NCBI RefSeq assembly: GCF_033063295.1
Contig: NZ_JAWJZH010000001.1
Coordinates: 1,364,001-1,428,000 of the forward strand
Origin: Nitrosomonas sp. Is35
GTDB taxonomy: Bacteria; Pseudomonadota; Gammaproteobacteria; Burkholderiales; Nitrosomonadaceae
Reading direction: 5' to 3'
DNA: 64,000 bases
Below the pieces are notes generated by a model that was not told the DNA's origin, did not search any database, and worked only from the letters and a program-made list of their open reading frames with translations. Positions 21,137 through 41,414 of the stretch are shown here, piece by piece; within the stretch, counting starts at the first letter, position 1; every line of letters starts with the position of its first letter. Both the position numbers and the translations under genes were made by a program.

Positions 21137-21255
21137 AACTTCATTGCTCCCATGTAAATCCTGCCGGATATTGAAAAATGACCGGCACTCCCTGCGTCAC
21201 AGGTGACTTACTGCACCAGTTTGGGGAAGGATGCGGTAGCACTTGCCGTACATCA

Positions 21256-21708
21256 ATGAAAGCCTTCCACATAAAAAGAATCAGCTTGTTTTTGTTCGCT
21301 TCACTCATCGTTTACGCCACTTTTTTTACGGAGAAAGCCAGACTGGATAGAGAAGTAAAGCGGCTTTGTGCGATTGATGGTGGAATTAAGGTGTATGAGA
21401 CGGTGAAATTACCGGCAGAGCGATTTGATCAATATGGGCAGATATCAATTCCGTACAAGAAAAATGTCAAGCCTGAGGATGAGTATTACTACGAATCATC
21501 CACGGTCTATCTTATTAAAGGAAATCCGGAATTGAGGCAATATCGTTCCCAAATATATCGACGATCCGATGGTGGATTGCTTGGTGACTCAATCAGTTAC
21601 TCACGAATTGGCGGGGATATGCCCGGCCCTTGGCAGCCTTCGTCGTTTATGTGCCCTGCGAATGAAGGTTTTAATTATTTGATGAAAAAAATTTTTATCA
21701 AAAACTGA
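21256..21708 (+). CDS. Hypothetical membrane-anchored or exported protein
   Basis: No family recognised. From the ATG at 21256 the product has 150 residues with an N-terminal hydrophobic segment (ISLFLFASLIVYATFF) that is a signal anchor. The rest is soluble and rich in Y, R and K, with a KNVKPEDEYYYESSTVYLIKG segment and two cysteines. An upstream in-frame start at 21178 is possible but would put a non-hydrophobic leader first. It sits at the edge of the RTX remnant and TIR island. Confidence 0.55.
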   Translation: MKAFHIKRISLFLFASLIVYATFFTEKARLDREVKRLCAIDGGIKVYETVKLPAERFDQYGQISIPYKKNVKPEDEYYYESSTVYLIKGNPELRQYRSQIYRRSDGGLLGDSISYSRIGGDMPGPWQPSSFMCPANEGFNYLMKKIFIKN

Positions 21709-21721
21709 GGAGGGATAGGAA

Positions 21722-21948
21722 GTGAATAATTTTTTTGCTTATTTCAAGCAAGCTGAACTGGCTTTGGCTGCTTATGCGAAGAGTTTGGAAATCGGTCGCC
21801 CGGCTATAGAAAATCTATAGAATGCAGAATTTTCCGATAACCAAGCTCGCACATTTGCCGATAGCTACAACATAGTTGACCAATTCAAGGATGCAGCTAC
21901 AGACTTATCCGCAACGGTGTTTGCTGATGCTGGTTTGTCGAAAAAAAA
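21722..21948 (+). pseudogene. N-terminal remnant of an RTX-type (lipase-like calcium-binding) protein gene
   Basis: A strong GAGGAGGGATAGGAA ribosome binding site leads to GTG at 21722. The reading gives NNFFAYFKQAELALAAYAK, then an in-frame TAG at 21818, and beyond it QARTFADSYNIVDQFKD and DLSATVFADAG. This resembles the N-terminus of large proteobacterial proteins with a lipase-like head and RTX repeats (A-Y-A-L...A..F...Y.VVDQF.D...GLSATVF). The sequence ends at the TIR island; the matching C-terminal part appears at 25257-26042. Confidence 0.6.
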
Positions 21949-24603
21949 CTATTGTCGTTTTCTCCTAGGTGTAATCGAACTTAATAAAACATTTAGGTTA
22001 TTGTCCGAGAGGCCATCGCGCAAATCCAGAAGCTGGTATTGGCGCAAGAAATTAGGAAGAAGTACAGGTTCTGTGCCAGGCAGCAGTATAGGTATAACTT
22101 TTTGGTTGTGCATCATTCGATTCCGCAACATCGCCATAGTCTCATCCTCTATTCCAAATCCTCCTTGCCACGCTCGTCCAATACAGATAAGGAATGATGT
22201 GGAGGAAGCGATTGCATCCTCGAGAACTTGATGTATTAGATTGCCGGGACGCAGTTCCCATTGATCAAACCATACCCGGATACCCCTTTCTGTGAGTTTT
22301 TCGACAAGTGACCTAACGATCGTTCCGTCATTGTAGCTGTAAGAAATAAAAACATCGAACCTACCCTTACCAGAAACTTCTGCAGCTTCTTCTCTTCGAC
22401 CGCTCTCTTGAAGTATACGTGCTAAACTTCCTCTGATTCGTGTGGCGATTGGACTATCTTCCCGCAAGCTTGGGTGAAGGTTATCGAGAGCGCGGCGTAG
22501 GAGTACTTCGGCTTTTTCAACGCGCCGCTCATCAACCAAGATGTCAGCTAGGTTATTGATCTGTGTGGCGGTTTGAGCAGCTTCCGATCCAAAGACTTCT
22601 ATTGCTACATCAAGTGCACGCTCATGCCATCGAATTGCTTCGTCACTTCGTCCCATCTCCCTGTAGAGATCAGCCAAATCATTGTAGGTCGGTAGGACAG
22701 CACCTTTATTCACACGTGGGGCGGATTCGGATATTTTCAAGGCTCGCTCATAGTAGTGAATTGCGTCGTCCAGACGCCCCATCTCGCGAAAAACTCCAGC
22801 CAGATTATTGTAGGTCTTTATAATTGCGGAATCACCGGGACGCCGGGTCATCTCAGTCAATTTCAAGGCTCGCTCGTACCAGTGAACGGCATCGTTCCGC
22901 CGTCCCATCTCGCGAAAAACTCCGGCAAGATTATTGTAGGTTGCGAGTCTGGCAGAATCACTAGGAGGGCGGTTCATCTCCGTTATTTTTAAGGCTCGTT
23001 CATACCAACAAACGGCATCTTCCCAACGTCCCATTTCGCGGTAAATTCCGGCTAGATTATTGTAAATTGCCAACACTGAAGGATCACTGGGACGGTCAGG
23101 CATCTCTGCCAATTGCAGGGCTTGCTCATACCAGCGAACAGCCTCCTCGTCTCGTCCCATTTCGCGGCAAACTCCGGCTAGGTTATTGTAGACTGCCAGT
23201 ACGGCGGAATCACTAGGATGTCCAACCAATTCTGCGAACTCAAGTGCCCGCCGATACCAACCCAAAGACTCATCCAGGCGTCCCATTTGGCGACAAACAT
23301 TTGCCAGATTGGTGTAGCTTGCCATTTTAGCAGGGAGGTCTGAGTCAGAGTCCGTTTCAACAATCTGCCGATATAGGATCTCAGCCTCGTCCAGACGTCC
23401 CGTAGTCATCAGCAGTTCACCAAGATGATTCATGCTTGATCGAGCTGCTGGATTATTCGGACCAAGAATGTTGACACTCATCTCTAGTGCCTTTCGAAAG
23501 TATGATTCTGCCGAAATGAACCGCTGCTGCCTCAAAAGAGAAACTCCCGCTTCTGTCAGCAATTCAGAAAGCTGGTTCAAATCTCCAAGTTCGCTTTCTA
23601 TGCCCTCCAAAGTATGCGCAATAGCCAGTTCGTCAATTGGCACTGATGCAAGCAGCGAACGCAACTCTGCAATGCTGCCAATACCTCGATCAACGCTTTC
23701 CGGTAAAACAATTTGCTTGGCATCCCGAAAATCACTTACTAGCAATCTAGCAATGTTTTCCAAATAAAAACCAGGAAATTCTGGATCGGAAACTCCCTGC
23801 GTGATGACTGGAAGCGGTTCTCCAAAGCTAAATTTCGTGATGTAAGGAATTTTCGTTAGTTCAAGAATCTGGCGAGGTTTGAGTTCTATTGGCAGCCAAT
23901 CGTCATAAAATGGTTTTAGTTCTTCAGCGAATCTGTCGAGCCAAAACTGTGCCTCATTGACTTCATCTCGTCCATCGAAACGGCCGGGAAGGGGAAGCAC
24001 TGCTAGCGGAGGTCGTGGAATTGATAAATAACGTCTTGCACTTTGAACGCCGTTTGCAACTTGCACACCACGCTCAAAACTCTGTTCGTTCGCCGAGAAA
24101 ACGAGAACCAAGATATCCGGCAAGTAAATCGTACACACTCCACCTGTATCTGTAATTCCAGTTCGGCTGTCTATGAGCACAAATTCATAGTTTTCTTTCC
24201 ATTCATTCCTCCACCGATTCAGAAGGTCGCCACCTGCGTGTTTATCAAAGAAAGTATTCCAGGAAAAGTTGCGAACTCGCTCGACATAGTCGGTCGATTG
24301 ATCGCCGCTTGTTATGAGGTGGATCGGTTCGTGGTCGGAAATTTCTATTTTTGTGATATACGATTCCCATGAAACTGCCTGATTGCCCTCTGCTTTTTCA
24401 AGAAAATGGATCAATCCTTCAAATCCAGGCACTGGATGTTGCAAGTAAGGCTTGAAATAGCGATGCAAGCCAGGAGCTTCCAAATCTCAATCCATCAGAA
24501 GCACACGCTTTCCTCGCTTAGCGAGCAACACCGCAATATTTGCGAGTGCAAAGGTTCGACCAACGCCTCCCTTATACGAATAGAATGTGATGATTCGGCT
24601 CAT
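21949..24603 (-). pseudogene. KGGVGR-type P-loop ATPase with TPR repeats and a C-terminal TIR domain, carrying an in-frame TGA
   Basis: The full reading frame begins at ATG 24603 (MSRIITFYSYKGGVGRTFAL) and is 884 codons, with a single TGA at codon 39 (24487-24489). Relatives have Trp there (LLMD-W-DLEAPGL). After it the frame is open from 24483, where a TTG can serve as a start. Domains are a ParA/MinD-like ATPase with the variant P-loop KGGVGRT (about residues 11-17) and a DSRTG motif (about 145), about seven TPR-like repeats (about 325-730; repeated YNNLAGV.REMGR..DAV.WYERAL units), and a TIR domain (about 740-884, FDVFISYSYND). Translation from the downstream TTG would lack the P-loop. It overlaps the upstream TIR gene by one base (TAATG). 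Similar KGGVGR-TPR-TIR proteins occur in defence and signalling contexts. The reading may be a true nonsense mutation or a sequencing error. Confidence 0.8.
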
Positions 24604-25223
24604 TAAATTGGAAGAACTAGAGAAGGAACAGTTTTTTGAGATTGAATTTGAATTCTAAAAAGACCTTCGAATTGCTCGTGTGCGATCTGCTCCCAAGCAG
24701 AATCAAAAGGGGGTACTGAGGTCAATGCTTTTTCAATCGAAGCGCACAATTTGTTTCTGAGAACGTCAGCTAGTTCTTCCTGCCTTGGGCTATCCGGCCG
24801 CATGAAAGGGTTTGCGAATGCGTAAAGTGACTCTCCTTGCATTGCCTGCACTTCTGGTGGAAAACAGTTACCATCGTCGATCACGACAGGAATAATTAAT
24901 CCCCAAGGGTTCGAGGCATTTCGAAAATTACCTTCTTTCTCTCGATGATTCATCAGTGCAAGTTCTAGTCGACACCAATCGCTTTGGAAATAGTCTCGAC
25001 TAAGCACCGCAACCATGATACGAGACCGCGAGAGGCTCATGGCAAGATGATTTGGCCATGATGCACCATCTTCAATCGTTTCATCAATGAAGACCTTAAC
25101 GTTACCTAATCGAACGCGCAGCAGCGCGGTCAACGCTCGTACGAAATTCTCGCGCGTCCATCGTACCCAATCTATGTCGGACCGCCTATAACTTACGAAA
25201 ATGTCATTCTCATAGTCAATCAT
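24603..25223 (-). CDS. TIR-domain protein
   Basis: The 206-residue protein is nearly all TIR domain. It opens with YENDIFVSYRRSDIDWVRWT and continues with VKVFIDETIEDGASWP, VAVLSRDYFQSDW and CRLELALM. The WCRLE motif carries the glutamate used by NAD-cleaving TIR enzymes. The end (about residues 130-206) has no recognised domain. ATG at 25223 is preferred to a TTG 7 codons upstream. Its stop shares one base with the ATG of the KGGVGR/TPR/TIR gene, so the two are cotranscribed and coupled. The role could be NAD hydrolysis, a nucleotide signal or protein scaffolding; nothing in the sequence decides. Confidence 0.85.
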   Translation of the reverse strand: MIDYENDIFVSYRRSDIDWVRWTRENFVRALTALLRVRLGNVKVFIDETIEDGASWPNHLAMSLSRSRIMVAVLSRDYFQSDWCRLELALMNHREKEGNFRNASNPWGLIIPVVIDDGNCFPPEVQAMQGESLYAFANPFMRPDSPRQEELADVLRNKLCASIEKALTSVPPFDSAWEQIAHEQFEGLFRIQIQSQKTVPSLVLPI

Positions 25224-25256
25224 AATTTTTCTATTAAACTTCAAATTCTTTAAAAA

Positions 25257-26042
25257 ATGAAATCAAAAACTGGAAAGTACCAAAGTGTCCGAGCATTAGT
25301 TGCGCTTTCAGATCAGAAAGCAACTAAAAGAGATGTCTTCAGTTACAGCATGGACTCAAAAACAGGCATATACGCCTATCCGGATGATAGTCATATGTTT
25401 ACCTATAGTGCCATATTGGTTGATGGCAGTCTATTGCCATCGTGGCTTAGTTTTTACCGGGAAACCCTTACATTCAGGGGCGGTACAGGAATTTTGTCGA
25501 TTTGCTGAACGCGCTGGTGACTGCAAAAGATACTGGTAATCTGATCGCTGCGGATATTTTTACTATCGATATCGGTGACTTGGGTATGACGAGCAACGGT
25601 ACATCAGGTTCCGATATGTTGGCTGAAGGTACCGGTAACGATACACTTAACGGCTTAGGCGGTAACGATGTCTATATCTTTGGACGGAATTATGGCATGG
25701 ATACTTTGATCGACCATGACTCTGCGCCGGGTAATTTCGATATCGTGCGATTTCTCCCCGGCATTAGCGCGGATCAGATATGGTTTCAGCGAGCAGGTAA
25801 TAATTTGGAAGCGAGTGTTATAGGGACAACGGATAAAGTAGTGATCAATGATTGGTACCTCGGATCCGCTAATCACATCGAACGATTTAAAACCTCCGAT
25901 GGTCGTGACGTTACGAGACCGGCAGGTGGGTGATCTGGTCAATGCGATGGCAGATTTTGCTTTACCTGACCTGGGAGAAATCATTCTGTCGCCCGATTAC
26001 GCATCGATTCTAAGTTCTACCATTACATCGCACTGGGGTTAA
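25257..26042 (+). pseudogene. C-terminal remnant of an RTX-type calcium-binding protein gene
   Basis: Three reading-frame pieces together resemble the tail of a large RTX protein. First a cadherin/Ig-like segment (FTYSAILVDGSLLPSWLSF), then an RTX nonapeptide stretch (GTSGSDMLAEGTGNDTLNGLGGNDVYIFG), YGMDTLIDHDSAPGNFDIVRF and NHIERFKTSDG, and last QVGDLVNAMADFALP to a TAA at 26040. Frames change near 25500 and near 25908. No signal or intact start is visible. It is the back end of the gene whose front is at 21722-21948; the middle is gone and the TIR pair stands in its place. Confidence 0.65.
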
Positions 26043-40197: not shown

Positions 40198-40289
40198 TTC
40201 GACGCATAGTCCACTGGAAGGTAGATGCGTGTTGTGCAGTTGCCGGATGCGGAGAATATAGCGCATAATCTCCGCATGAGGTGCGTAGA

Positions 40290-41414
40290 ATGAATCGTTA
40301 TATTCATGAATTACCCGATTGGCCTGGTTTCAGCTGGGATCATGCAAGATTGTCTGGGCTGCTGGCCTCTGTACGCCACCGGCAGGGGCGGTTAATTGGC
40401 CGGATGGAAGCTATGGGATTTCCTTTAACGGCGCAAGCCACGTTGCAAAACTTGACGCTCGATGTGTTGAAATCTTCCGAGATTGAAGGTGCAATTCTGA
40501 ACCGTGATCAGGTTCGCTCCTCGATTGCCTTGCGGCTGGGATTGGATATTGGCGCGTTAGCGCCCGCCGACCGTCATGTTGACGGCATTGTCGATATGAT
40601 GCTCGATGCCACGCAAAATTATGCAAAGCCATTGAGCGTGGATCGCTTGTTTGGGTGGCACGCGGCACTATTTCCCGCTGGTTTTAGCGGTATGCATAAA
40701 ATCAGAACCGGGCAATGGCGTGATGATGCAAATGGGCCGATGCAGGTGGTATCCGGCGCGCTTGGGAAAGAGCGTGTACATTTTGAAGCACCTGCGGCCG
40801 AACGCCTCAAGCAGGAAATCAATCTTTTTCTGACATGGTTTAATGATAAAAATGATACCGATGCTGTCCTCAAGGCTGGTATTGCCCATTTGTGGTTTGT
40901 CACGCTTCATCCATTCAAGGATGGCAACGGACGCATGGCGCGTGCAATTGCCGATATGGCATTAGCGCAATCCGAACAAAGTTCGCAGCGCTTTTACAGC
41001 TTGTCGGCACAAATCCGGCAAGAGCGGAAAGCTTATTACGATATGCTAGAAAAAACCCAAAAAAATGATCTCGATATCACGCTTTGGCTAGAGTGGTTTC
41101 TAAATTGCCTTGATCGTGCGATCAGCAATACGGAAGCAACGCTGGGTGATGTGCTCTATAAAGCACGGTTTTTACAGACGCATAAGAATGTATCGCTTAA
41201 TGACCGTCAGCGCATTATGCTGAATAAAGTGCTGGATGGGTTTGAAGGTAAGCTGACATCGTCAAAATGGGCGAAACTTACCAAATGCTCACAGGACACG
41301 GCGCTACGAGATATTTTGGATCTGGTCGAGCGTGGCATCCTACTGAAAGATGCCGGCGGCGGGCGTAGCACCAGCTATTCGCTCAAAGATGTATCGAATG
41401 TTGGCGATCAATAA
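40290..41414 (+). CDS. Fic-family protein with N-terminal inhibitory motif
   Basis: Fic enzymes transfer AMP or related groups to target proteins. The 374-residue protein has the active motif HPFKDGNGRMAR at about residue 208, with catalytic His, and an inhibitory motif SSEIEG near residue 67, of the [S/T]xxxE[G/N] class, so it is a self-inhibited class II Fic. The N-terminal part (RYIHELPDWPGFSWD) is a DUF4172-like region and the C-terminal 80 residues form a winged-helix-like segment. ATG at 40290 is preferred to GTG at 40281. No toxin partner is present, since the inhibition is internal. The stop is adjacent to the next start. Confidence 0.88.
   Translation: MNRYIHELPDWPGFSWDHARLSGLLASVRHRQGRLIGRMEAMGFPLTAQATLQNLTLDVLKSSEIEGAILNRDQVRSSIALRLGLDIGALAPADRHVDGIVDMMLDATQNYAKPLSVDRLFGWHAALFPAGFSGMHKIRTGQWRDDANGPMQVVSGALGKERVHFEAPAAERLKQEINLFLTWFNDKNDTDAVLKAGIAHLWFVTLHPFKDGNGRMARAIADMALAQSEQSSQRFYSLSAQIRQERKAYYDMLEKTQKNDLDITLWLEWFLNCLDRAISNTEATLGDVLYKARFLQTHKNVSLNDRQRIMLNKVLDGFEGKLTSSKWAKLTKCSQDTALRDILDLVERGILLKDAGGGRSTSYSLKDVSNVGDQ

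Follow-up and report, generated by a model that had tools for sequence, protein, structure and literature searches.

Introduction

MinD/ParA-type ATPases position cell division and plasmids, and their canonical P-loop has a lysine where the KGGVGR motif has an arginine. In plant TIR domains, the glutamate of the WCxxE motif is catalytic, and the TIRs of SPARTA and of plant TNL receptors are activated by assembly. The AP-ATPase/TPR proteins of the FxSxx systems carry a MinD/ParA-like domain that is predicted to be inactive, as stated in the accessible passages of Kaur et al. (2020, PMC7159879). In the searched literature, which consisted of titles, the starts of abstracts, and passages including those of PMC7159879, PMC8195603, and PMC13174449, there was no account of the gene pair considered here, the term KGGVGR was absent, and the passages described no role for TIRs of the FxsC type.

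The pair is found in a 64,000-nucleotide stretch of DNA from Nitrosomonas sp. Is35, which is referred to as the window. It consists of a free TIR gene and a gene joining a KGGVGR ATPase to TPR repeats and a second TIR. From its sequence, we lean towards reading it as a mobile two-gene immune switch, in which the ATPase would activate a TIR NADase.

Gene Organization and Domain Structure

Gene 1 (24603..25223, minus strand) encodes a free TIR protein of 206 aa, which has a TIR fold at residues 3-170, a helical tail at residues 175-195, part of a conserved tail spanning residues 175-206, and an SDWCRLEL motif containing Glu87. It matches TIR_2 of Pfam at 60.6 bits (cut-off 28), in agreement with the initial annotation, in which it was a stand-alone TIR with a WCRLE motif. 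Gene 2 (21949..24603, minus strand) has 884 codons with an ATG start at 24603 and a TGA in frame at codon 39, and encodes the KGGVGR ATPase-TPR-TIR protein. The stop of gene 1 and the start of gene 2 share one base within TAATG at 24605-24601, so that the one-base overlap of two minus-strand genes reported at the outset is present.

The domains of gene 2 were analysed with either the read-through protein (P0001) or the 844-aa ORF. The MinD/ParA-like ATPase domain (residues 1-300; 23704..24603, minus strand) carries KGGVGRT at residues 11-17 and is the constant part among relatives. A structure model gives these 300 residues a MinD/ParA fold, and the read-through protein matches AAA_KGGVGR (NCBIfam NF047398) over residues 3-177 at 148 bits against a curated cut-off of 90, in support of the ParA-like KGGVGRT head that had been described. 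A TPR superhelix follows at residues ~301-745 (22369..23703, minus strand), and then a C-terminal TIR domain at residues 749-865 with Glu821 (22009..22359, minus strand). In Pfam, the read-through protein shows TPR_12 in seven stretches and TIR_2 at residues 751-864, which confirms the earlier order of about seven TPR repeats and a terminal TIR. The profile and structure searches proposed with the initial annotation thus bear out both identities, TIR and KGGVGR P-loop ATPase. The domain scores and the adjacency of TIR and ATPase genes in relatives are far above chance; promoter and terminator scans gave results near chance level.

Conservation of the Gene Pair

A TIR alignment scan with three peptide patterns, using one genome per species from 84,980 species, a design by which more distant pairs may be missed, yielded seven loci. 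A KGGVGR ATPase lies directly after the TIR at five of them (L028, L030, L031, L032, and L033); the sixth (L029) is cut off by the contig end, and the seventh (L034) is a weak TIR match only, at 17.6 bits. The TIR is also found in two of 72,556 plasmid records (L078 and L079), each time with a KGGVGR or KGGTGR ATPase immediately after it, and the TIR of L079 is the most distant at 46 bits to the profile. The ATPase is therefore directly downstream in 7/7 other loci that have a TIR match of at least 46 bits and readable downstream sequence. No KGGVGR ATPase follows the two weak TIR matches, namely that of L034 and the second TIR of L078 (31.5 bits). The gene junction at the seven loci is an ATGA four-base overlap in five, a gap of 1 nt in L078, and a gap of 13 nt in L033. 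The initial annotation had staked its pairing on homologues being adjacent elsewhere, and this adjacency recurs in L028, in L030-L033, and on the plasmids L078 and L079.

TIR and ATPase distances are strongly correlated, with a Mantel r of 0.94 for 32 pairs and of 0.77 for the 29 pairs that exclude three distant ones, and none of 5000 permutations was as high; because only pairs with both partners present were selected, the correlation cannot show that a TIR accompanies each ATPase of the clade. Extraction of the 32 heads relied on the KGG[VT]GR motif, and its conservation in this set is thus by construction. Pairs seen directly are those of the window and six loci. The remaining 25 of the 32 were not seen adjacent and were joined by the equal longest-contig size of TIR and ATPase clusters, drawn from the best 120 of 5700 ATPase matches and the best 120 of 199 TIR matches; one of the joined pairs lies on the 13,937-base contig of L030, and a few short-contig joins may be due to chance. 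In the tree built from 66 ATPase heads, 16 rows carry a HEPN-like label, assigned by pattern or manually, and 13 the label other; 30 of the 32 TIR-paired heads form one set (support 99/92), and a wider set of 33 heads (99/96) holds all 32 together with one HTH-paired head. Collectively, the pair is almost certainly real and co-inherited.

The KGGVGR motif is nearly uniform among the best 120 of 5700 ATPase matches, where 112 proteins have KGGVGR, five have KGGTGR, three are without the motif, and none has lysine in place of the arginine. KGGVGR ATPases form a broader kind than the TIR-paired ones; of 398 phylum genomes, 37 have one above the cut-off, own genome included, and they occur on 10 viral contigs and 10 plasmid records, and no ATPase head was found in phage records. 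At the 29 phylum loci obtained besides our own, the TIR profile detected no TIR (upstream genes were read except that of L062), and the idea that a KGGVGR ATPase implies a TIR was rejected. On viral contigs, the upstream gene appeared HTH-, MqsA-, or HEPN-like by eye in the 8 of 10 cases in which it was readable, and the TIR profile gave nothing there either. Other first genes include annotated MqsA-family antitoxin genes, HTH genes, and M28A proteins (170 bits at L036 and 39 bits at L083); M28A has no Pfam match and no PADLOC description, and is HEPN-like by eye. The window module is the TIR version of KGGVGR ATPase modules, with an added tail.

Exchangeable Tails and the Free TIR Protein

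The region behind the ATPase head varies considerably. The tail is of the TPR-TIR type in the window and L028, whereas L030 and L033, both of them complete, carry TPR repeats alone, with no TIR at E 1e-5 (other TPR-only proteins may be cut by contig ends). L032 has a TIR-CHAT-NTPase-TPR tail, L078 has a TIR with no TPR match, P0048 and L079 have an FGE-domain tail, and P0045 has an NB-ARC-TPR tail. Roc-COR (P0055) and NACHT-FGE (P0036) tails belong to close ATPases, for neither of which a TIR neighbour was seen. Tree neighbours can differ in their tails: P0044, in which no tail domain was recognised, groups with P0045 at support 100/98, and P0020 (TPR-TIR) joins P0048 (FGE) at 90/90. In 20 chosen C-terminal TIRs, two of them with an identical tail, the glutamate is in the column in 15, one place later in one, and missing in four. 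The initial annotation had drawn its functional suggestion from a pair of TIR domains, but this pair is not the defining feature: the C-terminal TIR is absent in L030 and L033 and its glutamate is lacking in some proteins, whereas the free TIR and the head are constant. The notion that having two TIRs is the point was accordingly rejected, and by sequence comparison the C-terminal TIR is an optional part of the ATPase protein, the free TIR and ATPase head being the constant parts.

The free TIR shows the opposite behaviour to the C-terminal one. WCxxE is present in 120/120 of the free TIR proteins listed (best 120 of 199 matches), and Glu87 in 59/59 aligned free TIRs. The motif aligns with the WCxxE of the plant TIRs L6 and RPP1, and the fold matches the TIRs of RPS4, RUN1, SPARTA, and SARM1, so that both features looked for in a TIR NADase, the fold and a glutamate at the WCxxE position, are found. 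Because WCxxE is universal in the listed free TIRs, the glutamate of the C-terminal TIR is variable, and the tails are swapped, the free TIR is likely to be the enzyme and the tail an exchangeable part. In NCBIfam, FxsC is the best match for all six free TIRs scanned, at 48.7 bits for the window TIR and 119.3 bits for the best relative (L079), against a curated cut-off of 130. Gene 1 also weakly matches PDC-S66 and ThsB (17.8 bits for ThsB). The TIR was not found in viral contigs or phage records.

A different division of labour could be considered, in which a nucleotide signal is produced by the free TIR, in the manner of ThsB, and received by the ATPase/TPR/TIR protein, with the C-terminal TIR as the effector. 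The two-gene layout with the TIR first, the retention of the C-terminal glutamate in 15/20 proteins, and the ThsB-type gene near the L028 module are consistent with such a relay. It is nevertheless unlikely, since L030 and L033 are complete with TPR only, four of the 20 C-terminal TIRs lack the glutamate, and neither SLOG, macro, nor another receptor domain is present among the Pfam matches listed.

Genomic Setting and Mobility

The module lies in an inserted cassette of approximate extent 21931..25265, which comprises the two genes plus about 20-40 bp at either end and is delimited by the homology breaks of relatives. It is flanked by two scraps of the same gene, RTX-type by eye: a broken 5' scrap (21724..21930, plus strand) and a broken, frameshifted 3' scrap (25266..26035, plus strand). 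Homology to the same-genus genome G028 ends near 21930, and homology to G028, G029, and G455 restarts near 25266. In these three genomes, a single long RTX-type ORF (2442, 2429, and 2028 aa, respectively) adjoins the right-hand flank, and the left flank is found across this ORF, in the same order, in G028. The window thus holds an insert of ~3.3 kb between RTX-type ORF ends, which contains two genes only. The full-length ATPase protein was not found in 60 relatives of the genus and order, where the best other match (127.7 bits) covers the TPR region only, and the TIR occurs at E 1e-20 in one of 398 genomes of the phylum, which is the source genome itself. The module is a sporadic, mobile unit. 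No tRNA was found within the window, which gives no support to tRNA-directed integration. No defence genes were recognised beside the module in the window, and the flanks appear housekeeping-like by eye. The neighbourhood of L028 contains PDC-M50A/B, where M50B has a ThsB-type TIR. A C-5 cytosine methylase and a pair of TIR and nSTAND1 genes are also present there.

This setting bears on a non-immune interpretation, by which the pair would serve regulation or signalling, for example in stress or development, as a relative of FxSxx/FxsC systems with the TIR as a scaffold. FxsC being the best NCBIfam match in 6/6 free TIRs scanned is in its favour, as is the predicted inactivity of the MinD/ParA domains of related systems in the accessible passages of PMC7159879. 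The sporadic distribution on a mobile insert, with the TIR in 1/398 phylum genomes and the full protein in 0/60 relatives, argues against it, as do the defence neighbourhood at L028 and the conserved catalytic-type glutamate, and we regard it as quite improbable. From its sequence features, the module probably has an immune role.

An In-Frame Stop in the ATPase Gene

The TGA at codon 39 of gene 2 (24487..24489, minus strand) stands at a position that is tryptophan in 106 of the 120 ATPase proteins listed (best 120 of 5700, including P0002, the shortened product of the window itself). The initial annotation had taken gene 2 to be uninterrupted, and in this respect it needs correction: the window copy lacks an uninterrupted P-loop domain. 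The remaining ORF begins with a TTG at 24483, two codons past the TGA, and encodes 844 aa without the P-loop; the protein database entry for the product of the source genome (P0002) is this 844-aa form. Since TGA terminates 10 of 42 non-overlapping window ORFs of at least 200 aa, it is an ordinary stop in the window, and a code in which TGA specifies tryptophan was rejected as the cause. As judged from the sequence, the full-length ATPase protein cannot be produced from the window copy unless the TGA is subject to read-through or results from a sequencing error.

Outside codon 39, gene 2 is little eroded. It deviates at two of 135 conserved ATPase columns, compared with 0-3 deviations in 17 of the 19 relatives printed and none in the two nearest, and the TIR of gene 1 deviates at one of 69. 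The stop is therefore either young or an assembly error. A decaying remnant, that is, a broken RTX-type gene holding a pseudogene and an orphan TIR, is a possible but somewhat doubtful description of the window copy, and one compatible with the other readings; the in-frame TGA and the two broken RTX scraps speak for it, whereas gene 2 is otherwise open over 884 codons and matches 133/135 conserved ATPase columns, so that any decay is young, or the stop an assembly error. Decay of the window copy says nothing against the module family elsewhere. On balance, the window copy is rather more probably non-functional than functional at present: barring read-through or a sequencing error, the ATPase copy is probably inactive in the source strain, and the TIR intact but unactivated.

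The interrupted gene also bears on whether the ATPase activates or restrains its partner. In a toxin-antitoxin-like pair, the ATPase/TPR protein would restrain a toxic TIR NADase, and phage or loss of the ATPase would release it and kill the cell. Such a pair would fit the overlap of the two genes and their place on a small mobile insert, and other KGGVGR ATPases follow annotated MqsA-family antitoxin genes or small proteins that are HEPN-like by eye. However, the source strain has an interrupted ATPase and an intact TIR, both with barely eroded conserved sites, and a toxin would not be expected to last once its antitoxin is gone, except if the stop is an error or the 844-aa product is enough. 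We therefore consider this reading unlikely. The intact TIR beside a broken ATPase suggests an activating rather than a restraining role for the ATPase; this argument would not hold if the stop were a sequencing error or if the 844-aa product still bound the TIR.

Proposed Mechanism and Implications

In the immune switch favoured here, the TPR tail would sense a signal related to infection or damage. The ATPase head could act as an ATP-bound dimer or oligomer switch with altered hydrolysis, a property proposed because the canonical P-loop lysine is arginine in the head. Once switched on, the ATPase protein, as an activator and not an antitoxin, would gather free TIRs, in the window version partly through TIR-TIR contacts with its C-terminal TIR, and the gathered TIRs may cleave NAD+ and thereby arrest cell growth on infection.

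More broadly, and with slightly less than an even chance in our estimation, the relatives may constitute an undescribed modular immune class. It would combine a constant FxsC-like TIR effector and a MinD/ParA-fold KGGVGR switch with many of the tails found in cell-death receptors of eukaryotes and bacteria (TPR, TIR, CHAT, NB-ARC, and FGE/lectin-like, as well as NACHT and Roc-COR in close ATPases with no TIR neighbour seen). Its logic would be NLR-like, with a cell-division-type ATPase in place of the STAND NTPase, and the TIR would be one of several exchangeable first genes, along with M28A/HEPN-like, MqsA-like, and HTH genes. If this is true, MinD/ParA-type ATPases also switch TIR immune modules, and a single ATPase head serves with many different sensor tails and with several types of first gene. 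It would also give a functional context to FxsC-type TIRs, and a defined, testable set would be available in the intact Aliiroseovarius (L028) and rhizobial-plasmid pairs.

Comparison with Known Systems

The initial annotation had stated that the module resembles defence modules while matching no named system with exactly this pair, and the comparison with named systems leads to the same view. SPARTA, Thoeris, and plant TNL receptors share the TIR fold and the glutamate motif with the free TIR of the window, but its switch is a MinD/ParA-fold ATPase rather than an Argonaute, ThsA, or an NB-ARC/STAND NTPase. For Thoeris, the partner would be ThsA (SIR2/SLOG, macro, or TM), whereas that of the window TIR is a KGGVGR-TPR-TIR protein. 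With respect to STAND/NLR proteins, no STAND NTPase is present among the 25 Pfam families listed out of 28, and residues 1-300 fold as MinD/ParA. The MoxR-vWA ternary conflict systems, as described in the accessible passages of PMC7159879, likewise have TIR among their effectors, and their effector and repeat domains are exchangeable around an NTP-dependent core; they differ in that the window insert has two genes only, with no MoxR or vWA gene recognised by eye. FxsC-annotated genes lie right after AAA/MoxR ATPases on Streptomyces and Kitasatospora plasmids (L087 and L088).

The FxSxx-COOH systems of actinobacteria are similar in that FxsC tops the NCBIfam matches of the free TIR and FxSxx_TPR matches the TPR part at 137 bits, but the window scores are under the curated cut-offs (48.7 vs 130 for FxsC and 137 vs 300 for FxSxx_TPR). 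Unlike these systems, gene 2 of the window has no Pfam match to AP-ATPase (NB-ARC). A motif scan of translations, in which no radical-SAM or peptide genes were recognised beside the module, gave candidate matches: one C-rich match in L033 and four FxSxx-stop matches (in L032, L078, L079, and window positions 14001-35000). The PADLOC candidate PDC-M28 has the same layout of two overlapping genes with the small protein first and the KGGVGR ATPase second. The locus L036 scores 170 bits for M28A and 597 bits for M28B, whereas the window ATPase reaches 91 bits over part of the M28B profile, the first gene of the window is a TIR with M28A unmatched, and a TPR-TIR tail is added. The best reading of these comparisons makes the window module a counterpart of PDC-M28 with a TIR as its first gene, distantly related to the FxsC TIRs.

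The RTX-type gene, so designated by eye, that is interrupted by the TIR/ATPase insert has its broken ends at window positions 21724-21930 and 25266-26035, and its counterpart in same-genus relatives (loci L075, L076, and L077) is an ORF of 2028-2442 aa. The gene is preceded by a small ORF (21178-21708), of which additional similar copies are present at the same three loci. Such repeated copies are often seen for partner or immunity genes. Elsewhere in the window, an ORF at 40281-41414 resembles the Fic family, with an HPFKDGNGR motif identified by eye.

In Aliiroseovarius (L028:1453-14617), the TIR/ATPase pair stands in a row with PDC-M50A/M50B, a C-5 cytosine methylase, and a TIR plus nSTAND1 pair; M50B here is ThsB-type. 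On plasmids from Streptomyces and Kitasatospora (L087, L088), AAA/MoxR ATPases are followed downstream by long genes annotated as FxsC, a TIR-like family.

KGGVGR ATPases were also observed immediately behind small genes (L036-L061, L083, and the viral contigs L097 and L098), many of which were judged HEPN-like by eye. M28A, the small first protein of the PADLOC candidate PDC-M28, was matched by L036 and L083, and not by L060. At L081, L084, L085, L091, and L093, an MqsA-family gene, assigned by annotation on three plasmids and by eye on two viral contigs, is directly followed by a KGGVGR ATPase, which is an additional two-gene type.
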